Source: Planctomycetales bacterium 10988
GTDB lineage: Bacteria; Planctomycetota; Planctomycetia; Pirellulales; Pb10988
NCBI GenBank assembly: GCA_009664345.1
Contig: CP043547.1
Location: 4,926,709-4,990,708, forward strand
Direction: 5' to 3'
Length of the DNA stretch: 64,000 nt
Of this stretch, positions 262-46,132 are shown piece after piece; positions within the stretch are counted from its first letter, which is position 1, and the number at the start of each line of letters is the position of its first letter. The position numbers were made by a program, and so were the translations under genes. Under the pieces are notes generated by a model. That model searched no databases. It saw only the letters and a list, made by a program, of their open reading frames with translations, and was not told the DNA's origin.

Positions 262-466
262 TAAGAGCCGGTGGTCAAACCTCTTCAGAATCAGGTAAAC
301 CCGTGGAAAAGGGAACTCTCCATTTACTTTGACCACGAACTCTAAAACGAATCCTCTTCAGATATTTCAAACAAGCGAGGGGGCAACCGACCTCCGCCTG
401 TTTCTTTTACAAAATTTATCAACCTTTAAAGGTTTCTCCCTCCTTTGCTTCGAAAGTGGTTTCTCA

Positions 467-2992
467 ATGTGGTCAAATATGTTCTTTCATAATGGTAAGA
501 AAAACAATCAACTGGCAGGCACGCGTTTACAATTAGAGAAGCTTGAGGATCGGCAACTCCTCGCGAGCGAGCCGATCCTTATTGAGATCGATCCGGGAGT
601 ACCTCCCAATCCTTTCCTTTTCATTGAATTCAACGGGTCGGCCTTCTTTCGTGCTACGGATGCAGCTACAGGCCAAGAGCTCTGGATGAGTGATGGAACC
701 TCCAGCGGGACCCAATTGGTCAAAGATATCAATCCGGGAACAGGTGATTCCTACTTTTATAATCCGGTGAACGTGAACGGCACCTTATTTTTCAGAGCCA
801 ATGATGGCGTCAACGGAAATGAACTCTGGATGAGTGATGGAACTTCAAGTGGAACCCAACTGGTCAAGGATATCGATCCGGGAGCAGATAGCTCCGAACC
901 AGCCTTTCTCACCAATGTGAATGGCACCTTATTTTTCAGGGCCGGTGATGGCAATCTTGGCTTTGAACTTTGGATGAGCGATGGCACTTCAGCAGGAACG
1001 CAGTTAGTCAAGGATATTAATGACGGAATAGGTAATTCCCTTCCCACTTACCTCACCAACATCGATGGCACGTTATTTTTCAGAGCCAACGACGGCACAA
1101 ACGGTAGTGAACTCTGGAGGAGCGATGGAACCTCAGCCGGAACGCAACTCGTTAAGGATATCAACCCTGGAGCAAGTGCCTCCTCGCCTTCGAACCTGAT
1201 CAATGTGAATGGGACCTTATTCTTCAGAGCCGATGATGGCGTCGATGGTGTGGAACTCTGGATGAGCGATGGAACTTCCGCCGGAACGCAACTGGTCAAG
1301 AATATCAAAGCGGGACCAGATGGTTCCTATCCCCAGACAATGATCAATGTGAATGGTATCTTATTTTTCGCGGCCAATGATGGAGTCTACGGCACCGAAC
1401 TCTGGAAGAGTGACGGCACAAGTAGTGGAACGCAACTCGTCAAGGATATTTTCCCTGGAGTAACCTCCTCCGAGGCGAATTTTCTCACGAACGTGAATGG
1501 AACCTTGTTCTTTAGAGCCTCAGGTGGCCCCTATGGTTATGAACTTTGGATGAGTGATGGCACCAACGCCGGCACTCAATTTGTCAAAGATATCAACCCT
1601 GGAGGAGATTCCTCTCTCCCGTTTGGTTTGACGAATGTGAACGGTACTTTGTTTTTCCGTGCCAATGGTGGTTCAACCGGACATGAACTCTGGAGGAGCA
1701 ATGGAACCTCCGCTGGAACCCAATTGGTGAAGGATCTCAACCCAGAGGAGGCGGATTCATCTCCTAGCTCTCTGAGTAATATCAATAACACCCTGTTTTT
1801 CAATGCGGATCGTGGCGTCAACGGTCGTGAGCTCTGGGTGGTCTTCCCGACGGAACCTCTCTTCGTGACCGGGAGTGATGAAGGAGATGGAAGTGTGTTG
1901 GTCTTGGATGCCACCGGGGCCGAGCAGTACGACTTCTTCCCCTATTCTCAAGCCTTCACTGGAGGCGTTCGTGTCGCCACCGGGGATCTTAACGGCGACG
2001 GAAAACTGGAGATCGTGACCGCTGCAGGACCGGGAGGTGGACCGCGGGTTCGCGTCTTCGACCTGCAAACCGGGAGTTTGTTTGACGGAGGGGTGAATGA
2101 TTTTTATGCGTATGCCCCCACCATCACTGTCGGGGTGTTTGTCGCCGTGGGGGATGTCAACAGCGATGGTTACGACGATATCATTACCGGTGCCGATGAA
2201 GGTGGTGGACCGCATGTCCGGGTCTTCAGCGGGCTGGATGGTTCCGTGATCACCGAATTTTATGCCTACGATCCCGAATTCAAAGGAGGAGTTCGTGTCG
2301 CGGTGGGCGATGTCTTTGACAACGGGACGGCCGATATCATCACCGGAGCCGGACCTGGTGGCGGACCCCATGTTCGAGTCTTTGACGGAAGTTTTTCTAC
2401 TGGCGTACCTCTCCCGGGAGCGGCGACCGACTTTTTCGCCTATGATCCAAGCTTCACCGAGGGAATTTTTGTCGCCGCTGGGGATGTTGATGGCGATGGT
2501 CGGGCCGACATCATCACCGGAGCGGGACCAGGCGGCGGCCCGCATGTGAAGGTCTTCAGTTCAGCCGATGGTTCCTTGTTACATAACTTCTTTGCCTATG
2601 ATCCTTCTTTCACCGGCGGAGTTCGGGTGGCATCGGTGGACCTGAACGAGGATGGAATCTTCGATATTCTCACCGTTCCAGGGCCAGGCGGGGGACCACA
2701 TACGAGGGCCTTTAGCGGTGTCGATCTCAGTGACTTGGCGAATTTCTATGCTGGAGATTCGCAGATCGAGTTCGGACTCTTTGTGGCCGGCGGCTTTGGC
2801 GAGCTATCTGATATCCCTTCCATGAACTCGGCACCCTTTCCCAGCTTTCCTGTTAGTCAAGATTCTGATTCGCCAAAGGATGTGAATCTCGAAACCCTCA
2901 CCGCGAAGAAGTCGTGGGCAGACAACACCGAGGAATTTTATCAATCCGCCGAAGAAATCGACAAACTCTTTAGCGGGTTAGGAATCGATTAA
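467..2992 (+). CDS. Secreted ELWxxDGT / FG-GAP repeat protein, paralogue 1
   Basis: An 841-residue protein. I place the start at the ATG at 467 (MWSNMFF) because the paralogue downstream starts with the equivalent MWSDFF; the frame is open further upstream to a TTG at 329. The N-terminus carries LEKLEDRQLLA near residue 25-35, a motif common at the start of exported planctomycete proteins. Eight full ELWxSDGTxxGTxxVKDI repeats follow, plus a final ELWVV, spaced about 50 residues apart. Then come five FG-GAP-like repeats, each with a DxNxDG calcium-type loop followed by TGAxxGGGPHVRVF, which probably form a beta-propeller. The C-terminus is the conserved tail EEFYQSAEEIDKLFSGLGI. The likely location is the cell surface or outside the cell. 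The ligand is unknown. No enzymatic motif is visible. Confidence 0.85.
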   Translation: MWSNMFFHNGKKNNQLAGTRLQLEKLEDRQLLASEPILIEIDPGVPPNPFLFIEFNGSAFFRATDAATGQELWMSDGTSSGTQLVKDINPGTGDSYFYNPVNVNGTLFFRANDGVNGNELWMSDGTSSGTQLVKDIDPGADSSEPAFLTNVNGTLFFRAGDGNLGFELWMSDGTSAGTQLVKDINDGIGNSLPTYLTNIDGTLFFRANDGTNGSELWRSDGTSAGTQLVKDINPGASASSPSNLINVNGTLFFRADDGVDGVELWMSDGTSAGTQLVKNIKAGPDGSYPQTMINVNGILFFAANDGVYGTELWKSDGTSSGTQLVKDIFPGVTSSEANFLTNVNGTLFFRASGGPYGYELWMSDGTNAGTQFVKDINPGGDSSLPFGLTNVNGTLFFRANGGSTGHELWRSNGTSAGTQLVKDLNPEEADSSPSSLSNINNTLFFNADRGVNGRELWVVFPTEPLFVTGSDEGDGSVLVLDATGAEQYDFFPYSQAFTGGVRVATGDLNGDGKLEIVTAAGPGGGPRVRVFDLQTGSLFDGGVNDFYAYAPTITVGVFVAVGDVNSDGYDDIITGADEGGGPHVRVFSGLDGSVITEFYAYDPEFKGGVRVAVGDVFDNGTADIITGAGPGGGPHVRVFDGSFSTGVPLPGAATDFFAYDPSFTEGIFVAAGDVDGDGRADIITGAGPGGGPHVKVFSSADGSLLHNFFAYDPSFTGGVRVASVDLNEDGIFDILTVPGPGGGPHTRAFSGVDLSDLANFYAGDSQIEFGLFVAGGFGELSDIPSMNSAPFPSFPVSQDSDSPKDVNLETLTAKKSWADNTEEFYQSAEEIDKLFSGLGID

Positions 2993-3022
2993 ATCGATTT
3001 CACTGAACATAAGAAACGTTCT

Positions 3023-3056
3023 AAAAGGCAAGGGTGGAAAACGATCCTTGCCTTTT
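3023..3056 (+). terminator. Rho-independent-like terminator after paralogue 1
   Basis: An 11-bp perfect inverted repeat (AAAAGGCAAGG at 3023-3033 and CCTTGCCTTTT at 3046-3056) has a 12-base loop and a T-run on the 3' side. It lies 31 bases after the stop codon. Confidence 0.75.
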
Positions 3057-3210
3057 ATTTACCTATGTGAATTTGGTAAATTTGGTAAAAAACTGATAAT
3101 TCTATGGTTTCAGTGGATTTTATGCGATAAGATTCCTATAGTTTACCTCTCCTTCCAGACCGCGCATGATGATTCCTCTTTTATTTTTCTTAGACAGAAA
3201 GTTCTTGCCA

Positions 3211-5637
3211 ATGTGGTCCGATTTTTTCTCCCCCAAGAATAGAGTAACGACTGATAAGCAACTGGATACGCCACTTCAATTGGAACAACTCGAAGGCAGG
3301 CAACTTTTGGCCGCGATGCCGGTGTTGATCGATATCGTCCCCGGTGCCGACGGTTCAGGCCCAGGTAATTTCGAAGAAATGAACGGCACGGTCTTCTTTG
3401 CGGCCAACGACGGTACCAACGGAGTCGAACTGTGGAAGAGCGATGGAACTTCCGCCGGCACGCAAATGGTGAAGAACATCAATACAGGGCCAGCCGGCGC
3501 CAACCCGGAACTTAGCTCCAATCCCCGGGCTTTGCAAAATGTGAATGGGACGCTCTTCTTTGGGGCGAATGATGGCTCAAACGGTTTTGAACTGTGGAAG
3601 AGTGATGGAACCTCCGCGGGAACGGTTTTGGTTAAAGATATCAACCCCGGTTCTTCCAGCTCCTTCGTCAACTTTACGGAGAATCTCAACGGTACGCTTT
3701 TCTTCAGTGCGCTCGAAAGCTCCGTTGGGTATGAATTGTGGAAGAGTGATGGGACCTCTGCCGGAACGGTTTTGGTCAAAGATATCAATCCCGGCACCCT
3801 CTATTCTCGTCCCACTGATATCACCAATGTTGGGGGCACCCTCTTCTTTGGGGCCATTCAATCTAGCCCCGATATCGGCTTTGAACTGTGGAAGAGCGAC
3901 GGAACTTCCACTGGGACGGTCTTAATCAAAGATATCAATCCTGATGTCGTTAATTCCTTTACTTCGACTTACTCCACCCCAAAAGACTTCACGGAAGTTA
4001 ATGGGACGGTCTTCTTTACCGCCAATGACGGAACCGCAGGATATGAACTTTGGAAGACGGATGGCACTTCTGCCGGAACCGAACTTGTCAAAGAGATCTT
4101 GCCTGGCTCTGCGGGGCCACGTCCGACCGATCTAGAGAATATGAACGGCACCCTGTTCTTCGCGGCCAATGATGGCACAAACGGCACCGAGCTGTGGATG
4201 AGCGATGGAACTTCCGCTGGAACGATGCTCGTCAAAGATATTAATCCGACCATCTCTTCCTATCCTTCCAGTCTGGAGAATGTCAACAATACGCTTTGGT
4301 TTGCAGCCAACGACGGCACCAACGGCACCGAGCTGTGGAGAAGTTACGGCACCTCTGGGGGAACGACCTTGGCGTTTGACCTGAATATGTCGGGAAGTTC
4401 CAGTCCTAAAGGGATGACGAATATCAATGGCACGCTCTTCTTTGCGGCCAATGATGGAAGCAACGGCAATGAACTTTGGGTTCTTACGGAAGACCCGGAC
4501 GAACCTTTCTTCGTCACCGGCAGTGATGACGGTTCCGGTCGCGTGCTCGTTCTCGATGGCGATGGGGCTGATCAATATTTCCTCTTCCCTTACTCGCAAG
4601 CCTTCACTGGAGGCGTGCGGGTTGCGACGGGTGACATCAATGGCGATGGCAACATGCAGATTGTCACGGCTGCCGGCCCAGGGGGCGGACCACGGATTCG
4701 GGTCTTCGACCTGGAAGACGGAAGTGTTTCCAGTGGGGCACTCGTTGACTTTTATGCCTATGATCCAGCTTTCACCGGCGGGGTCTTCGTGGCTGTGGCC
4801 GATGTGAATGATGATGGTTTCGATGATATCATCACTGGGGCCGATGCTGGCGGTGGGCCGCATGTGCGGGTCTTTAGCGGTCAAGATGGAAGCATGCTCA
4901 GCGAATTCTACGCCTATGATGTGAACTTCAGCGGCGGCGTTCGCGTGGCAGCGGGGGATATCAATGACGATGGCTTTGCCGAAGTCATCACGGCACCGGG
5001 AGCAGGCGGCGGACCCCATATCCGAGTCTTTGATGGAAACGTCTCCAATAGTTTCCCAATTATGGGTCCGGCGACTGACTTTTATGCCTATGATCCCGCT
5101 TTCCTCGGTGGGGTCTTCGTGGCTTCCGGGGATGTGAACAACGATGGCTTCGACGACATCATTACCGGGGCCGATGCCGGTGGCGGCCCGCATGTGCGAG
5201 GCTTTAGCTCCGACGACGGCAGCATGTTGCATGATTTCTACGCCTATGATCCGTCCTTCACCGGCGGCGTGCGAGTAGCTTCCTTTGATTATAATGACGA
5301 TGGCTACGATGATATCATCACTGCCCCAGGACCCGTCTCCGGACCGGCGGTACGAGTCTTCAGTGGGATGGACAGTTCGCTCCTGACGAGTTTCTTCGCC
5401 GGCGATTCACAGATTCAATTCGGGATCTTTGTTACTGGCGGTTTTGGCACCTTGCCGGATGTTCCCTTCCCCACTTCGGCACCATTTTCGAGTTTCTTCG
5501 TGAGTGAAGATTCCGATCCGCCAGAAGAGGTGAATGTGGAAAGCCCCACCGCGAAGAAATCATGGGTGGACGACACCGAGGAGTTCTATCAATCCGCCGA
5601 AGAAATCGACAAACTCTTCAGCGGCTTGGGGATCTAA
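3211..5637 (+). CDS. Secreted ELWxxDGT / FG-GAP repeat protein, paralogue 2
   Basis: An 808-residue paralogue of the preceding gene. The start is taken as the ATG at 3211 (MWSDFF), matching the MWSNMFF start of its neighbour; an in-frame ATG at 3166 is also possible. LEQLEGRQLLA follows at about residue 28-38. There are seven ELWxSDGT repeats plus a final ELWVL, then five FG-GAP-like repeats with DxNxDG loops. The last FG-GAP repeat has lost the GGGPH motif (VSGPA instead). The C-terminal tail is identical to those of the other two paralogues except for the last residue. It is probably exported and surface exposed. The array suggests recent tandem duplication followed by changes in repeat number. 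Confidence 0.85.
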   Translation: MWSDFFSPKNRVTTDKQLDTPLQLEQLEGRQLLAAMPVLIDIVPGADGSGPGNFEEMNGTVFFAANDGTNGVELWKSDGTSAGTQMVKNINTGPAGANPELSSNPRALQNVNGTLFFGANDGSNGFELWKSDGTSAGTVLVKDINPGSSSSFVNFTENLNGTLFFSALESSVGYELWKSDGTSAGTVLVKDINPGTLYSRPTDITNVGGTLFFGAIQSSPDIGFELWKSDGTSTGTVLIKDINPDVVNSFTSTYSTPKDFTEVNGTVFFTANDGTAGYELWKTDGTSAGTELVKEILPGSAGPRPTDLENMNGTLFFAANDGTNGTELWMSDGTSAGTMLVKDINPTISSYPSSLENVNNTLWFAANDGTNGTELWRSYGTSGGTTLAFDLNMSGSSSPKGMTNINGTLFFAANDGSNGNELWVLTEDPDEPFFVTGSDDGSGRVLVLDGDGADQYFLFPYSQAFTGGVRVATGDINGDGNMQIVTAAGPGGGPRIRVFDLEDGSVSSGALVDFYAYDPAFTGGVFVAVADVNDDGFDDIITGADAGGGPHVRVFSGQDGSMLSEFYAYDVNFSGGVRVAAGDINDDGFAEVITAPGAGGGPHIRVFDGNVSNSFPIMGPATDFYAYDPAFLGGVFVASGDVNNDGFDDIITGADAGGGPHVRGFSSDDGSMLHDFYAYDPSFTGGVRVASFDYNDDGYDDIITAPGPVSGPAVRVFSGMDSSLLTSFFAGDSQIQFGIFVTGGFGTLPDVPFPTSAPFSSFFVSEDSDPPEEVNVESPTAKKSWVDDTEEFYQSAEEIDKLFSGLGI

Positions 5638-12128: not shown

Positions 12129-13268
12129 TCAGGAGGCCTTTTCTTTCTTCGGGGAAGCCTTCTTGTCCACATAAGGCAAGACCTCGCGATAAACTTCGAG
12201 GGTTTCCTCCGCCATGCGATCGAGTCCAAAGCGTTCTTCAACGAGCTTCCTTCCGGCTTGGCCGAGACGCTGTACTTCTGCCCGATTTTTCAAGAGATAG
12301 ATAATCTTTTCTGCCAAGGCTTGGGGGTTGTGCGATTCGACAATCAACCCGTTTTCATTATCCGTCAAGGCATCCGAGACCCCGCCGACTCCGGTGGCAA
12401 TGACCGGCTTGCTTAATGCCATCGCTTCAAACATCACCGTGCCGAGTCCTTGTTGTAAACTAGGCAGGCAAAAAATATCCATCGCCTCCAGGGCTTCGCG
12501 ATACTCCTGCAAATACGGCACAAAGGTCACTTGCCGGGTAAGTTTCAATTCATTGGCTAGGCCCCGTAGACTGGCTTCATCCGGGCCTCTCCCGGCAATC
12601 AGAAACTCCACATCGAAGCCGGCCTTCTTCACGAGTTGAGCAGCTCGCAAAAAGTAATCTTGGCCTTTGGTCGATTCCAACGGTCCTGCCGTCCCGACGA
12701 CCGGAACGTGTTCTTTGGGGCGTTCGGCACAGTGATCCATCGGGGGAATCTTCACCCCACTGTAAATGACTTGCACCAGAGACTCCGGGATTTGAATTCG
12801 CTCCAGCAAGTGATTCCGAACCGCCCGGCTGATGGTGATGATCTTTCCGCCATAAGTCGGTAGGAACCGCATCGAAGTCGGGTGGTCGAGAATGTTATGG
12901 ACTGTCAGCACCTCGGGAATCTTCCAGGATTGGCTGAGCCATTGACCAAGAGGGAGCAAATGATGGGTCTGAATATGAATCAAATCCGGACGAAATTCAG
13001 CGGCCCGCTTTCGCAAAGCACGGACCATCCAGAAGCGAAGGAAAGGCCAATCTAGCCCCGTGTATTCAATCAAAGGGATGTTTTTCTGCCGCAACAAGGA
13101 GCAACCTTGCGAACGCTGGCAAAGAATCTGGACCTCGATCCCGCGGGCCATCAACGCTTCCGCGAGCCGCCAGGTGTAGGCCGAACTTCCTCGAGGTTCC
13201 AAGGCACCCGCGAGAATCAAAACGCGAAGCTCTTCACGTTTGGCATCCTTCTTGTTCTCTTTGGTCAC
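12129..13268 (-). CDS. Glycosyltransferase family 4 (GT-B fold)
   Basis: 379 residues from a GTG start. The N-terminal Rossmann domain begins LRVLILAGALEPRGSSAYTWRLAEALMARG, typical of GT4 acceptor domains. The C-terminal domain has VGTAGPLESTKGQDYFLRAA (the usual G-x-L-xxxKG phosphate-binding region), LIAGRGPDEASLRGLA and the EX7E-type motif QGLGTVMFEAMALSKPVIA (about residue 275-295). In this protein the first Glu of EX7E is replaced by Gly (QGLGTVMFE), and the second Glu is kept. The C-terminal tail is lysine-rich. It probably transfers a sugar from a nucleotide-sugar donor to a lipid or polysaccharide at the cytoplasmic face. The acceptor cannot be predicted, because no polysaccharide cluster surrounds it. 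The gene ends 69 bases before cinA on the same strand. Confidence 0.85.
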   Translation of the reverse strand: MTKENKKDAKREELRVLILAGALEPRGSSAYTWRLAEALMARGIEVQILCQRSQGCSLLRQKNIPLIEYTGLDWPFLRFWMVRALRKRAAEFRPDLIHIQTHHLLPLGQWLSQSWKIPEVLTVHNILDHPTSMRFLPTYGGKIITISRAVRNHLLERIQIPESLVQVIYSGVKIPPMDHCAERPKEHVPVVGTAGPLESTKGQDYFLRAAQLVKKAGFDVEFLIAGRGPDEASLRGLANELKLTRQVTFVPYLQEYREALEAMDIFCLPSLQQGLGTVMFEAMALSKPVIATGVGGVSDALTDNENGLIVESHNPQALAEKIIYLLKNRAEVQRLGQAGRKLVEERFGLDRMAEETLEVYREVLPYVDKKASPKKEKAS

Positions 13269-39324: not shown

Positions 39325-41331
39325 ATGGCCAGCGTAAGTTCTCCCCATCCTGAATTATTGGAACAGACCCGCAGACGAGTCCAAGGGTTGGCTGAGGAAA
39401 TTGAACGCCTTTGCGAATCGTCGTTGGGGTTGTCGCAATTCCAAGCGGAATATCTGGAAAAGGTCGTTCATGCCTTGGGTGCCGTCGGTGGAGTTCTTTG
39501 GCGGTTGGACGAACAACAACAGCTTCATTTTTCTCAACCCATCAACCTGGATGCTATCGGCGGCCAAAAGCCTTTGCTGCAAACAGCGCACCATGCTCTC
39601 CTAAAACAAGTTGCCTTAGAGAAAAAGGGTCGGCTCGTTCCCGCTGGGCAATGTTTGGAAGCGGACGGCCTCGCACAGAATACCACGCCGTTCTTGTTGG
39701 TGATCGCTCCGATCGTCGTTGCCGGCAAGAGCATTGCGGTTGTCGAAATCATGCAGCGTCCGCAAACGCCTGCCAACGCCTGGTCGGGTTTCTTGCAGTT
39801 CCTCACCAGAACCACGCGGCATGCAGCGACCTATTATTCACATCGAAGGCTGAAGTTCTTGGCCGAGTCGCAAAGGACTTTTCAATTACAAGAAGCCTTC
39901 ACGCAAACGATTCACAGTAGTTTAGACCTCAACGCCACCGCTCAGATCTTGGCGGAAGAAGGTCGCAAGTTCGTTGGCACCGATCGAATCAGCGTTTTCC
40001 TGCGATATGGAAGCCAATACCGTTTAGCTGCCGTTAGCGGCGGACGCATTCAAATTGACACTCGCTCCAAAGCGGTAAAAGCCCTGGAACGCCTGGCTAC
40101 AGTGGTCGCGAGTGGGGGGCAACCGATTTGCTTGCCGGTGGATGAAGGAACGTTGCTTCCCAAGACAGAAAACGCCGTTAAAAGTTACCAAGCCATCGGC
40201 CACCCTACGGCCTTGCTGGTGAAACCTTTGGCCGGGAAAGCCCCGCATGATCCACCGATCGGGGTGTTGATTTCTGAATGGTTTACGCAACAGGAAGTCG
40301 CTTCTTCGGCACAGAAGAAATTGGAACTCGTCGCCACGCACGGCCAGCAGGCATTGCACCACGCAAAGTTACATCGAGGTCTTTCGCGGCTTCCGCTGGC
40401 TCGCGTCGTTACGAAATTTCAATCGACCGATGGCCTTGTTTCGATTTGCAAATGGCTTTTTCTGCTGAGTATCTTTTGCGGACTGTTGTTAGCGGCGACC
40501 AGCATTGAAACCGATTTCACTCTGCAAGCCCGCGGGACGTTGCAGCCGCAGAACCGCCGGGATGTCTTCGCCCGAGCCGATGGAGAAGTCCGAGAAATCT
40601 TCGTCGATCACGGGGCGATCGTGCATCAAGGTCAACTGCTGGCGACCCTTTCCAATGAATCGCTTGAGCAAGAACTCCAAGTGATCATCGGCCAACGTCA
40701 GCAAGTAGAAGCGAATTTGGAAAGCCTCCGCTCGGAGCGATTGACCTCGGTTCGTCTGCCCCCCGAACAACGCAACCGCCTCGCGACCGAGTTTGAATCG
40801 GAAGAGAAAAAACTCTCAGCCTTAATCGCTCAAGAGACATTGTTGCGACAACAATTAAAAGACCTTCGCATTGAAAGTCCGCTGACGGGACAGGTCACAA
40901 CTTGGAATGCGGTTGAACTTCTCCTCGGTCGCCCCGTGCGTGGCGGCCAACTCTTGTTGAGTCTTGCCGATCCGCAAGGCCCTTGGGTGTTGGAAGTCCA
41001 ACTGGGTGAAGAACATCTTGGCCATTTACTTTCGGCAGTGAAACAAAACGAAAAGCCAATCCAGGTTTCTTTTGTGATTGGAACCGATCCAAGTATTTCC
41101 TACACCGGCACGTTACAAAAAATTGCGGATCGGGTGGAGCTTGACGAGATGAATCAAAATGTCGTTCGGCTCACTGTCGCAATTGATGCCGATCGAATTC
41201 CCGAAGAAATGCTTCGCCCCGGAGCTTCGGCCTCGGCAAAGTTGCATTGTGGAAAACAACCTTGGGGCTTTGTTCTCTTTCATGATGTATGGGAGTTTAT
41301 TCAACGCGAAGTGATGTTTCGCCTTCCCTAA
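39325..41331 (+). CDS. GAF-domain HlyD family membrane-fusion protein
   Basis: 668 residues. The N-terminal cytoplasmic part has two GAF-like regions (about 30-170 and 195-350; HSSLDLNATAQILAEEGRKFVGTDRISVFLRY marks the second). A single membrane helix follows (about 375-395, ICKWLFLLSIFCGLLLAATSI). The outer part is an HlyD/AcrA adaptor: a lipoyl half-motif (ARADGEVREIFVDHGAIVHQGQLLATL), a coiled coil (about 455-515), the second lipoyl half (IESPLTGQVTTWNAVELLLGRPV) and a beta-barrel. Fusing a small-molecule or redox-sensing GAF domain to an export adaptor is unusual. It suggests the exporter is gated from the cytoplasm. It is followed on the same strand by a second HlyD and a PqqD-M50-HlyD protein, which together look like one complex. 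Confidence 0.88.
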   Translation: MASVSSPHPELLEQTRRRVQGLAEEIERLCESSLGLSQFQAEYLEKVVHALGAVGGVLWRLDEQQQLHFSQPINLDAIGGQKPLLQTAHHALLKQVALEKKGRLVPAGQCLEADGLAQNTTPFLLVIAPIVVAGKSIAVVEIMQRPQTPANAWSGFLQFLTRTTRHAATYYSHRRLKFLAESQRTFQLQEAFTQTIHSSLDLNATAQILAEEGRKFVGTDRISVFLRYGSQYRLAAVSGGRIQIDTRSKAVKALERLATVVASGGQPICLPVDEGTLLPKTENAVKSYQAIGHPTALLVKPLAGKAPHDPPIGVLISEWFTQQEVASSAQKKLELVATHGQQALHHAKLHRGLSRLPLARVVTKFQSTDGLVSICKWLFLLSIFCGLLLAATSIETDFTLQARGTLQPQNRRDVFARADGEVREIFVDHGAIVHQGQLLATLSNESLEQELQVIIGQRQQVEANLESLRSERLTSVRLPPEQRNRLATEFESEEKKLSALIAQETLLRQQLKDLRIESPLTGQVTTWNAVELLLGRPVRGGQLLLSLADPQGPWVLEVQLGEEHLGHLLSAVKQNEKPIQVSFVIGTDPSISYTGTLQKIADRVELDEMNQNVVRLTVAIDADRIPEEMLRPGASASAKLHCGKQPWGFVLFHDVWEFIQREVMFRLP

Positions 41332-41471
41332 CTTTAAATAACCATCTTATTTATTGTGTAAAGCAATAAATAGGCAGAATGGCATTAATAAATATAAAAT
41401 TTTTAATCAAACGATCAAAGACCATACACTATTTAAAACGTTTACTTGTCCCTCGGGCAAGGAGTTTTTCT

Positions 41472-42422
41472 ATGTTGATCAAACATGCTGCGATCTTTTC
41501 AACCGGTTTCCTTTTGACAGTTACGCTTTGTTGCGTCGGTCAAATTTCTGCCCAGTCTCCGACTCCTGACGGTCCTATTCATGTGCCGGGATGTTTGGTT
41601 TCCCTGGTGGAGGAAATCGAAGTCCCTGCAAAAGAAGCAGGCGTCATCGCCGCCATGGAGATCAAACCGGGTATGATTGTCGAAGCCGGGCAACAACTGG
41701 CTCAGCTTGAAGACGAACAGACACGCTATGAAAAACAACAGATGGAATATGATCGAGAGATTGCCTTGCGCGAAAGTGAAAATGACATCGCCATTCGCCT
41801 CGCCCGCAAGACGCAAGAGGTCGCCAAGGCGGAACTCTATCACAAACAGCAAGCCAATATGACCGTTTCCAAAAGTGTTTCTCAATCGGAAATTCGTCAA
41901 TTAATGCTGGCCGTGGAGCGGACCAAACTACAAATCGAAGAGTCCGAACATAAACAAGAGCTTGCCCGAATGACCGCGGAGAGCCGACAAGTCGGAGTGC
42001 AGATGGCGGAACTCCGTCTTCAACGGCATCTCATCAAGGCCCCGATCCCTGGCGTGGTCGCCGAGGTCTTTCGCCGGCCTGGGGAATGGGTCGCCCCTGG
42101 CGATACGATTCTCAAAATCTACCGGATTGATCGTGTTCGCATCGAAGGTTTTCTTTCCATCTCCGAGGCGGGTCCTGAAATCTTGGGCAATTTGGTCAAT
42201 GTCACCGTCGAGCTTCCAGGCCGACGACGCGTCCAATATCCCGGCAAAATTGTCTTCGTCAGTCCCGAGGTCGAACCCGTGCGGGGAGAACTCCGCGTTT
42301 GGGCAGAAGTTGAAAATGCCAATCATGAACTCCTGCCGGGCTTAAAAGCGGAAATGCAGATTCAGCGTTCCAATGGCTATTATTCGGCCCAACAGCAAGC
42401 CGGACAGCCGCAACTCCGTTAG
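41472..42422 (+). CDS. HlyD family periplasmic adaptor subunit
   Basis: 316 residues from the ATG at 41472, chosen because AAGGAG lies seven bases upstream and it starts a clean signal peptide (MLIKHAAIFSTGFLLTVTLCCVGQISAQ). The mature protein has a first lipoyl half (VPAKEAGVIAAMEIKPGMIVEAGQQLAQLED), a long coiled-coil hairpin (about 80-185), a second lipoyl half (IKAPIPGVVAEVFRRPGEWVAPGDTILKIYRIDRV) and a beta-barrel. Unlike its two neighbours it is soluble in the periplasm. It probably bridges the membrane-bound partners. It forms an apparent operon with the genes on either side. Confidence 0.9.
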   Translation: MLIKHAAIFSTGFLLTVTLCCVGQISAQSPTPDGPIHVPGCLVSLVEEIEVPAKEAGVIAAMEIKPGMIVEAGQQLAQLEDEQTRYEKQQMEYDREIALRESENDIAIRLARKTQEVAKAELYHKQQANMTVSKSVSQSEIRQLMLAVERTKLQIEESEHKQELARMTAESRQVGVQMAELRLQRHLIKAPIPGVVAEVFRRPGEWVAPGDTILKIYRIDRVRIEGFLSISEAGPEILGNLVNVTVELPGRRRVQYPGKIVFVSPEVEPVRGELRVWAEVENANHELLPGLKAEMQIQRSNGYYSAQQQAGQPQLR

Positions 42423-42440
42423 CCTCTCCCTTTATCTACT

Positions 42441-42479
42441 AAAAACTACTTTTAGAATCTAAAGCCAAAGAGTACTTTT
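42441..42479. repeat. Paired palindrome element between HlyD and M50 genes
   Basis: AAAAACTACTTTT (42441-42453) and the degenerate AAAGAGTACTTTT (42467-42479) start 26 bases apart. The arms can pair with each other over about 11 of 12 positions. It sits inside an otherwise co-directional operon, just before the M50 start at 42506, so it might attenuate rather than end transcription. Confidence 0.6.
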
Positions 42480-42505
42480 AGTATCCTCCCTCCGAGAAGA
42501 GTCGT

Positions 42506-44722
42506 ATGGCATCTGTTTCCTCACCTCCCGCTGCAAATCCACCGATTGCTTACCGGCACCGTCGGGATTTGAAATTTTCAGCAATCGAGCTGAATGGGGG
42601 AACCTTTTGGGTGGCGAAAGACCCGCTGGCCAGGGCGTACTATCGCTTCGATGAAGAAGAATACGCCATCTATCATTCCCTCAATGGGCGTCGTGATGCC
42701 GAAACGATCTGTGCGGAATTCGAAAAGCAGTTTTACCCTCAGCTTCTTCCCAAAGAAGAATTGCGGCAATTCGTTGCCAGCTTGGTTTCCAAAGGGCTCT
42801 TGCTCAGCGATGCCCCTGGCGTCCAGATTCCGCCGCGTCCTAAGAATCCCCTTGGTTTGTTGGGAATCACGGGAAAAATCTTTGCGTGGCGTCTGCCGGG
42901 GATCCAGCCGGATCGCTTCTTAGATGTTGCCTATCCTTGGATTCGTTGGGTCTTTTCCAAGACGATTCAGCGGCTTTATGTCTGCCTGCTCGTCGCTGCC
43001 TTCGCTTGGGTGGTTGTTCATTGGGAAGCGTTTATTTCTCGACTCCCTTCGCTACACGAATGGTTCACCCCTTCGAATGCCATCTGGATGGTCCTCACGC
43101 TAGCGGCAACGAAGGTCTTGCACGAGCTGGGGCATGCCTTCACTTGCAAGCATTACGGCGGCGATGTGCATGAGATTGGGGTGATGTTCCTGTGCTTCGC
43201 CCCTTGTCTTTATTGCGATACTTCCGACTCCTGGATGCTCTCGAGCAAGTGGCAACGCGCCCGCATCGGGGCCGCCGGGATGGTCATTGAAATGGGACTC
43301 GCGGCCGCGGCGACTTTCCTATGGTGGTTCAGTGAGCCGAGTTTGTTTCATCAACTTTGCCTCAATGTGATGATGATCGGTTCGGTCAATACGCTGCTAA
43401 TCAATGGCAATCCGTTGCTGCGATACGACGGATATTATATCGCTTCGGACCTCTTTGAGATTCCCAATCTTCGCACCCAAGCACAGCAAGCCGTGCGATC
43501 GACATTGGCAAAGTGTTGTCTAGGCTGGCCGCCACCTGGTAAGGAAGAGACGAAGCCAGCCTCACGGTTTCTGGTCGGTTTCGGCATGATCTCCGCTGTC
43601 TATCGTTGGATGGTCGCTTTCGGAATTGCTTGGTTTGTGCATGAAATTTTCAAACCCTATCGGCTGGAAATTCTGGGGACGATCCTGGCGGGGCTTGCCC
43701 TCTCCGGCATGATCTTCAGTCTGCTGACTCCATTGTGGGTTGCAATTCGCCATCCGGAAAGGATCGGACAAGTGAATGGCTTTCGCGTGATGGTTACGTT
43801 GTTCTTGCTCGGATTCGCCGGATGGGGAGCCTGGAATATCCCTTTGCCCTATCGTGTTGTGGCCCCGTTGGCCTTGGAACCGCGGGACGAACAGCCGGTC
43901 TATATCCGCACCCGTGGCACGCTCGAACAACTCCATGTTCGCCCTGGCGATCAAGTCAGCGAAGGGACAACGTTAGCCTCGCTGCATAATCCTTTGCTGG
44001 AGACAGAGGTTTCCGAACTGACGCAACAAGTCAATCGCCAGCAGACCTTCGTTGAGAATCTTCACGGTCAGCGATTCGCCGATCCCAGGGTGGCCCACCG
44101 GATTCCCGCGGCGATGGAATCCCTCCAGGACTTACAATCACGCCTCGCGAAAAAGCAAAAAGACCTCGAACGCTTGATCCTGAAAGCTCCGTCCGCCGGG
44201 GTGATTCTCCCGCCAGAAAATATTCATAAACAAGGGAATGAGGATGATAAGTCCTTGGGCGTTTGGAGTGGCGTTCCGCTGGCGGAGAACAATTTAGGAG
44301 CGACCTTCGATGCTGGTTCGCTCTTCTGTCTGCTTGGCGAGCCGGGCTCGGTCTCAGCCTTGCTCTTGGTCGATCAGCAAGAAATTGAATTTATTCGGGC
44401 CAAGCAAATGGTAGAGATTTATCTCGATGGGTGGCCGGGAAGGGTCTTTCGCGGTCGGGTGGAATCGATCTCTGAAGTGGATTTAGAAACGATTCCCAAG
44501 CAACTTTCCAACAAGTCCGGCGGCAATCTCGCTACACATACCGACCGGCATGGCCGCGAACGTCCGTTGGAAACGCTCTACCAAGTCCGGGTTCCGCTGC
44601 AATCGAAAGAAGCAAGCCTCTGTCCTGGCCAACGCGGACGAGCAAAGATCATCGTTCCTCCGCAGACTCTCGCTCAGCAAACCTCCCGCTGGCTCGCCCG
44701 AACCTTCCATTTTAGGTGGTGA
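42506..44722 (+). CDS. PqqD-like / M50 metalloprotease / HlyD fusion protein
   Basis: 738 residues. The N-terminal region (about 20-100; GTFWVAKDPLARAYYRFDEEEYAIYHSLNGRRDAETI) resembles PqqD-type peptide-binding domains. The membrane-embedded site-2-protease-like core has HELGH at about residue 206-210, with LLRYDGYYIASDL (about 310) as the third metal-ligand region, and roughly eight membrane helices to about 445. The C-terminal third is an HlyD-like lipoyl/coiled-coil/barrel module (TRGTLEQLHVRPGDQVSEGTTLASL). A peptide-binding domain, an intramembrane protease and an adaptor in one chain suggest cleavage and export of a peptide, possibly one whose precursor is bound by the PqqD domain. No precursor peptide or radical-SAM enzyme is visible in the window. 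Confidence 0.88.
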   Translation: MASVSSPPAANPPIAYRHRRDLKFSAIELNGGTFWVAKDPLARAYYRFDEEEYAIYHSLNGRRDAETICAEFEKQFYPQLLPKEELRQFVASLVSKGLLLSDAPGVQIPPRPKNPLGLLGITGKIFAWRLPGIQPDRFLDVAYPWIRWVFSKTIQRLYVCLLVAAFAWVVVHWEAFISRLPSLHEWFTPSNAIWMVLTLAATKVLHELGHAFTCKHYGGDVHEIGVMFLCFAPCLYCDTSDSWMLSSKWQRARIGAAGMVIEMGLAAAATFLWWFSEPSLFHQLCLNVMMIGSVNTLLINGNPLLRYDGYYIASDLFEIPNLRTQAQQAVRSTLAKCCLGWPPPGKEETKPASRFLVGFGMISAVYRWMVAFGIAWFVHEIFKPYRLEILGTILAGLALSGMIFSLLTPLWVAIRHPERIGQVNGFRVMVTLFLLGFAGWGAWNIPLPYRVVAPLALEPRDEQPVYIRTRGTLEQLHVRPGDQVSEGTTLASLHNPLLETEVSELTQQVNRQQTFVENLHGQRFADPRVAHRIPAAMESLQDLQSRLAKKQKDLERLILKAPSAGVILPPENIHKQGNEDDKSLGVWSGVPLAENNLGATFDAGSLFCLLGEPGSVSALLLVDQQEIEFIRAKQMVEIYLDGWPGRVFRGRVESISEVDLETIPKQLSNKSGGNLATHTDRHGRERPLETLYQVRVPLQSKEASLCPGQRGRAKIIVPPQTLAQQTSRWLARTFHFRW

Positions 44723-44860: not shown

Positions 44861-46132
44861 CTAATCCCTCGCCCCTACGATTAATGCCACCGCTTGCCCG
44901 GCTTGGGTGAAGCTGAGTTTGAGGCAGATCGGGTTCTTGACTTCGAGAAATTCTCCAGAGATGACATTCACCGGACAGGCGGGGTCGGGTGTTTCATAGT
45001 TTAACGTCGGGGGAATTTTGCCTTTTTGCAAAGCCAGGAGGCTGATGGCCAATTCCAAGGCCCCACTGCCGGCACTGGCATTTCCAAAGTAGCTTTTGAA
45101 GGCGGTGATCGGGGTATCTCCCAAAACGGATTGAATCGCCCTCGCTTCGAGTTCATCTTCCACGACGGTGCTCAAGCCGTGAGCATTCACATAGTCGATC
45201 TGTTCCGGCGAGAGGTCCGCCTCTTTCAATGCGTTTTGAATGGCCAGTTGAATTGCTTTTCCAGTGGCCTTCTTGCCATGCGGAACATGCTCGGTGCCGA
45301 CACCATAGCCGAGGACTTCCGCCAAGATCGGTATCCCACGGTCTTTGGCATGAGCCTTTGTTTCAAGGAGAAAACAGGCGGAACCTTCACCGGCTACTTG
45401 ACCGTCACGATCTTGATCAAAGGGCCGACAGGCTTGTTCGGGATGTTCGGTTTGCTTGGAGTACGATTCGTACCGGTGCCAACTATTGGAATAGATATAA
45501 TGAATTTTGACGCCGGTTCCCCCGGTGATCATCACATCCGCTCGGTCTCGCTCGATGACGCGAATCGCCTCGTTGAACGCCAAGAGAGAAGAAATCTCAT
45601 TCTGAATAATCGAATTGTTTGGACCACGAGCGTCTCGATAAATGGCGATGTGGCAAGCGGGCATGTTCGGAAGATACTTCAACATCCACAAAGGGAAGAC
45701 CGACCCCATGGCCCCTTCGCCCCATTCGGAAAATTGGAACTTTCCGTCTTGCACACATTTTTGATAGACCTGCTCCAAGTCGGCAAGATCGCTCATCATG
45801 GTATGTGCCCCAAAACTGACGCCGATTCGCTCCGGGGCAACACTTGAATCGTCGAGCTTGCCATCTTCGTAGGCCAACGCCGCCGAGGCGACCGCAAGCT
45901 GAATATCGCGGCTCATTAACTTGAGCACCTTGCGATTGGGCAGATAGGGTTTCGGATTGAAGTCGGGCAGTTCCCCCCCGATCTTCATCGGCAAGCCTTC
46001 CGGCTCCAACCGGCTCAAGGTGCGAACGCCGCTCTTCCCAGCTTCCAAGGCGGGCCAAACCTCAGAGGAGCCAATTCCCAAAGGACAAACCAATCCAAGC
46101 CCAGTAATCACAATCTCTTGCCGAAGGGGCAT
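44861..46132 (-). CDS. Beta-ketoacyl synthase-like protein without active-site cysteine
   Basis: 423 residues with a complete thiolase-type KAS fold (ITGLGLVCPLGIGSSEVWPAL at the start, CRPFDQDRDGQVAGEGSACFLLE in the middle, FTQAGQAVALIVG at the end). The nucleophile motif GPxxSIxTACxS reads GPNNSIIQNEISS, placing Glu179 where the catalytic Cys should be. The first catalytic histidine is kept (NAHGLST), but the second is Asn (SYFGNASAG instead of GHTxGAAG). It cannot condense acyl chains in the usual way. It may resemble chain-length factors (KS-beta), which replace Cys with Gln and work as partners of an active KS. No acyl carrier protein or second KS is adjacent. Confidence 0.87.
   Translation of the reverse strand: MPLRQEIVITGLGLVCPLGIGSSEVWPALEAGKSGVRTLSRLEPEGLPMKIGGELPDFNPKPYLPNRKVLKLMSRDIQLAVASAALAYEDGKLDDSSVAPERIGVSFGAHTMMSDLADLEQVYQKCVQDGKFQFSEWGEGAMGSVFPLWMLKYLPNMPACHIAIYRDARGPNNSIIQNEISSLLAFNEAIRVIERDRADVMITGGTGVKIHYIYSNSWHRYESYSKQTEHPEQACRPFDQDRDGQVAGEGSACFLLETKAHAKDRGIPILAEVLGYGVGTEHVPHGKKATGKAIQLAIQNALKEADLSPEQIDYVNAHGLSTVVEDELEARAIQSVLGDTPITAFKSYFGNASAGSGALELAISLLALQKGKIPPTLNYETPDPACPVNVISGEFLEVKNPICLKLSFTQAGQAVALIVGARD

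Follow-up and report, generated by a model that had tools for sequence, protein, structure and literature searches.

Results

The window, a stretch of 64,000 nucleotides of the Planctomycetales bacterium 10988 genome, holds three adjacent genes on the forward strand. They encode a membrane-fusion-type GAF-HlyD protein of 668 residues (39325..41331), a periplasmic RND/CzcB-type HlyD adaptor of 316 residues from its likely start (41472..42422), and an RRE(PqqD-like)-M50-HlyD protein of 738 residues (42506..44722). The first-pass annotation had described this trio, and Pfam bears it out in finding HlyD-type modules in all three products and no ABC, RND-pump or MFS domain in any of them. A promoter and terminator scan gave a result no better than that for shuffled sequence. 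On the reverse strand, a beta-ketoacyl-synthase-like gene adjoins the trio (44861-46132); similar genes adjoin the M50 gene of one relative (L036:3969-5228) and lie about 15 kb from a second copy of the trio (L059:14215-15000), perhaps by coincidence.

The assignment of the first protein rests on Pfam matches (GAF, 3.3e-6; HlyD_3, 5.6e-10; lipoyl) and on an AlphaFold2 model with a pLDDT of 84, for which Foldseek returns MacA and other adaptors. The model has two predicted cytoplasmic GAF domains (approximately residues 41-350), which would be followed by one transmembrane helix (approximately 370-393) and a periplasmic barrel-sandwich/HlyD part. The second protein matches HlyD_3 (1.4e-19), HlyD_D23 (1e-15) and lipoyl families; its start probably lies at 41472, where we read a signal peptide, as opposed to 41379 in the list of open reading frames. 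The first seven residues of both the first and third proteins (starts at 39325 and 42506) are MASVSSP. We considered a recent duplication as the source of this common start and set it aside, since the codons used for the seven residues differ between the two genes.

The third protein combines a leader-binding-type domain (residues 14-103), an M50 intramembrane protease core (approximately 136-415) and a MacA-like adaptor (approximately 423-730), with Pfam matches to Peptidase_M50 (2.9e-6) and HlyD_D23 (5.8e-10) and an AlphaFold2 model of mean pLDDT 80 and pTM 0.55. In this model residues 14-103 are predicted to form a winged helix with three strands and three helices, as in RRE/PqqD-like domains, and resemble the leader-binding domains of lasso peptide synthetases (TbiB1/lasso B1; VIA Z 9.5, rmsd 3.0, 86 residues). 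The modelled residues 188-382 resemble RseP (Z 9.8), with a further fold match to SpoIVFB, and residues 423-730 resemble MacA (Z 17.8). In the window protein the PqqD-like domain is too weak a match for Pfam, and in a Methylosinus relative it is matched at 1.6e-6; the predicted fold and this match agree with the PqqD-like N-terminus that had been read from the DNA alone.

The M50 core carries the HExxH motif of this peptidase family (as HELGH) and the downstream NxxPxxxxDG-type aspartate (in NPLLRYDG). His206, Glu207, His210 and Asp308 do not vary among 26 relatives with identities of 34-41%, and protease activity has therefore probably been kept. The best NCBIfam match is to the daptide intramembrane protease family NF041824 (5.7e-51, residues 29-406), at 173.8 bits against a curated cut-off of 300 bits, and there is a weaker match to YydH/LiaK (3.1e-8). 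These families share the PqqD-like domain and M50 core with the window protein, which differs from the daptide protease in being fused to an HlyD adaptor, in scoring below the family cut-off and in that no precursor peptide was found with it. Matches to TIGR03794, the HlyD family of NHLP bacteriocin export, reached only 27.1, 28.5 and 15.5 bits, with a cut-off of 156.2 bits.

The trio is not confined to the window. A second complete copy is present in the same genome (C1:6603919-6609384), and among 53 planctomycete loci found with the third protein the order GAF-HlyD, HlyD, RRE-M50-HlyD is kept in 35, so that a chance arrangement is excluded and co-occurrence of the trio in relatives is supported. 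The remaining loci are cut by contig ends or hold an M50-HlyD gene with no detected partners. Across the planctomycete genomes sampled, M50-HlyD is present in 30 of 118.

Further components are encoded elsewhere in the genome. A short SecA2-like ATPase of 649 residues (C1:6215869-6217815; SecA_DEAD, 1.9e-106), in which SecA_SW gives no match, is separated from the window trio by more than 1 Mb, while in relatives a short SecA gene adjoins the M50 gene at more than ten loci. The M50 protein, which had been taken for the only membrane engine, is thus probably not the sole one. No TolC-family match falls within the window, in agreement with the first-pass annotation; several proteins of this family (PF02321) are encoded outside it, and a TolC-family open reading frame lies about 1.2 kb past the second copy of the trio. 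At one locus (L069) a gene annotated as SapC-family sits between the M50-HlyD and SecA2 genes (12206-13027), and an open reading frame of similar size occupies the same position in another (L130:11163-11981).

Small precursor genes that recur beside the trio, as a peptide exporter would lead one to expect, did not emerge from the survey of these loci. The sole recurrent small protein is DUF3467 (about 110 residues), which does not look like a precursor because most of its length is conserved and it is found in distant phyla; it is probably an accessory factor. In Pirellula-like loci its gene follows that of the M50 protein, and in the present genome it lies outside the window, unlinked to the window trio.

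What does recur beside these genes are giant repeat proteins, which reach 16,000 residues in Proteobacteria. The alphaproteobacterial order is giant protein, DUF3467, GAF-HlyD, RRE-M50-HlyD, SecA2, HlyD and TolC, with one or other part absent from some of the plasmid loci; as in the trio, no ABC domain is found in the core Methylosinus cluster. The giant proteins share an N-terminal tag, [LIM]ExRx[LFVM][LF]-[DSNA]-[AG], of which LEPR-XLL is one known form, and three alphaproteobacterial giants already carry the LEPR-XLL annotation in their records. The motif is present in all ten readable N-termini of giant proteins beside proteobacterial M50-HlyD genes, a linkage that comes from plasmid records and hence from a non-random sample. 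Five of these read LEPRFLLSADP, MEPRVLLSADP, LEPRVLLNADV, IEPRILLSADP and LEPRLLLAADF, and five, at loci without SecA and GAF genes, read LESRQLFDGAA, LEARYMFDAAA, LEARLMFDAAA, LEPRFMFDAAG and LEPRMLFDGAI. The giant calcium-binding protein with LEPRLLLAADF (L134; NZ_CP123586.1 near 183224) has its annotated start too far downstream, and the motif lies upstream of that start in frame. We left uncounted an ELWxxDGT protein of a Magnetospirillum plasmid, whose N-terminus is missing.

In 40 planctomycete M50 loci the motif occurs within the first 130 residues of seven open reading frames of at least 300 residues, where shuffles lead us to expect 0.16; the pattern was written after examples had been seen, so that these motif counts, like those for the proteobacterial giants, are descriptive. 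In longer stretches, three tandem proteins carry LEERVLFDAA, and a frame no shorter than 3,341 codons, which adjoins DUF3467 and HlyD genes, carries LEQRKMLTT.

A second form of the locus consists of a giant protein with LExRxxFDA, TolC, HlyD, HlyD and M50-HlyD (L072, L128, L129, L131 and L133). It is mostly beta- and gammaproteobacterial and extends to enterobacterial plasmids, where the M50-HlyD locus lies beside an Ig-like protein. SecA, GAF and DUF3467 are not annotated at these loci, and SecA2 is thus not obligatory everywhere. The RSP protein of plasmid R27 was considered in this connection and dropped, as its export has been shown to require a conjugative T4SS and so provides no evidence for export by the trio.

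The NF012209 (LEPR-XLL) profile was built by others and served as an independent test of the link between tag and machine. It gives significant matches in 13 of the 118 planctomycete genomes, 12 of which have M50-HlyD (Fisher 1.1e-7; counted by family, nine of nine, 1.7e-5), DUF4347 is found in ten, nine of them positive (1.3e-5), and DUF3467 in 27, of which 21 are positive (2.5e-11), all of these values overstating the evidence because the genomes are related. The thirteenth NF012209 match (G087) was rejected as a probable shadow frame; it falls at residue 219, and the codon composition of the frame favours a gene on the opposite strand. Some candidate substrates have DUF4347 after the motif; in the single exception to the association of this domain (G029) the start of the protein reads as an ordinary signal peptide and the motif is absent. 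Fourteen of the 30 M50-HlyD-positive genomes have no significant match to either LEPR-XLL or DUF4347, and there the link runs through weaker variants of the motif or is absent.

The window itself holds two candidate substrates in tandem on the forward strand, about 34 kb from the trio (329-5637). The first is an ELWxxDGT/FG-GAP repeat protein with N-terminal LEKLEDRQLLASEP (329..2992; TIGR04534, 4.5e-178, and FG-GAP) and the second an ELWxxDGT repeat protein with N-terminal LEQLEGRQLLAAMP (3166..5637; TIGR04534, 1.1e-139). Their tags read LEDRQLLASEP and LEGRQLLAAMP, respectively, and both score too weakly to be listed for NF012209; the tags suggest that they are substrates of the machine. At least 13 places in this genome exceed the LEPR-XLL cut-off, and most of those that we read again encode proteins with ELWxxDGT repeats; LETLEPRVLLAGD is an example of their N-termini. 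In the C1:3896318 region (L151) an open frame that runs for 8,557 codons, contains DUF4347 and has LEHRIVLAT at its N-terminus apparently encodes a giant surface protein. Most tagged proteins of this genome are not beside the trio.

Discussion

The trio had been put forward as an undescribed system. It belongs to an already known kind of module, found here in a further genome, since the same three families have been reported as neighbours of secondary SecA_DEAD proteins, sometimes together with OEP (Kamneva, Poudel & Ward, PLoS One 2015; PMC4452313). That study described the M50-HlyD, HlyD/biotin_lipoyl and GAF-HlyD module from Planctomycetes and other phyla, included cases of dispersed secondary SecA, placed the operon in Methylobacterium extorquens AM1, suggested that SecA2 and M50 might replace the ABC transporter, and called the role of the module 'completely unknown' (PMC4452313). 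Our assignment of the trio to this T1SS-related module draws on identical domain sets and taxa. In both copies here the same three families are encoded together, and the genome also has a secondary SecA_DEAD protein; the difference is that SecA2 is unlinked from the trio in this genome and adjacent to it in many relatives. The words DUF3467, PqqD, giant and adhesin are absent from the main text of the 2015 paper (PMC4452313), and in the open-access literature we found no paper making the substrate link through DUF3467, LEPR-XLL or PqqD with M50 and HlyD. The substrate assignment therefore appears to be new.

Our observations cover the domain make-up of the trio, its conservation and second copy, a genome that encodes all parts, and the linkage and co-occurrence of tag and machine. 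We consider it likely that the trio makes up the inner-membrane and periplasmic sections of an exporter of giant LExRxLL surface proteins that is driven by SecA2 and depends on TolC. The proposal of the first-pass annotation holds to the extent that the trio looks like an export machine without an ABC, RND or MFS pump; a peptide is an unlikely cargo, since what recurs beside these genes are giant repeat proteins with LExRxLL-type N-termini and not small open reading frames. We retain leader binding as the supposed role of the PqqD-like domain, and propose the N-terminus of the giant protein as its ligand.

Export could proceed as follows. The RRE domain of the M50 protein would bind the tag region in the cytoplasm, and the short SecA-like ATPase would drive the polypeptide through the inner membrane, either at the M50 protein or close to it. 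We identified no inner-membrane channel other than the M50 protein, and SecYEG could serve. At some point the M50 active site may remove the tag, as its invariant catalytic residues suggest. By homology, the three HlyD modules would provide the periplasmic conduit to a TolC-family channel, and the GAF domains may gate or sense. The RRE domain is otherwise known from peptide natural products. A stronger version, in which the RRE reads the LExRxLL tag, SecA2 and the RRE-M50-HlyD protein replace the ABC transporter and M50 removes the tag in a distinct one-step diderm pathway, we put forward tentatively, as a possibility that may well fail.

Such an exporter would have HlyD-type adaptors, a TolC channel and giant, repeat-rich, adhesin-like substrates in common with type I secretion (HlyBD-TolC, LapBCE type), and would differ in that a SecA-like ATPase and the M50 protein take the place of the ABC transporter and in that the conserved tag is N-terminal. 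Gram-positive accessory SecA2 systems likewise reserve a second SecA for large surface proteins; the SecA of the present module is short, linked to HlyD and TolC components, and found in diderms.

The module might instead act on giant proteins that Sec has already exported, processing or anchoring them as, for instance, a surface-retention protease would, without being the translocon itself. An intact intramembrane protease, an RRE-like domain and linkage to giant proteins would be equally expected in that case, and we found no dedicated membrane channel; one-step export accounts better for adaptors that are repeatedly linked to a dedicated short SecA and to TolC, and we regard processing alone as unlikely. 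It would be distinctly surprising if the trio matured and exported a RiPP-like peptide, with the RRE binding a small precursor, M50 cutting the leader and the HlyD parts exporting the product. The RRE-like fold of residues 14-103 and the matches to NF041824 and YydH/LiaK point that way, but the third protein stays below the NF041824 cut-off, the only recurrent small protein, DUF3467, is unlike a precursor, and the recurrent partners are giant proteins. Least probable is small-molecule or metal efflux, with the three adaptors joining a putative pump to TolC and M50 as a regulatory protease: the second protein resembles RND/CzcB adaptors, and about 11 kb past the second copy of the trio there is an open reading frame that we read as an RND-type pump, but among the trio loci no other cluster of open reading frames is widely recurrent, whether it encodes a pump or not, and SecA2 and giant proteins recur instead.

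If the trio does belong to an exporter of giant tagged proteins, a module of 'completely unknown' role in 2015 would gain both a class of substrates and an export signal that can be tested. It would explain how planctomycetes and many Proteobacteria bring giant proteins of the LEPR-XLL, ELWxxDGT and Ig-like kinds to the outside of the cell. Leader recognition by an RRE, known for small peptides, would then hold for the largest proteins of bacteria as well.
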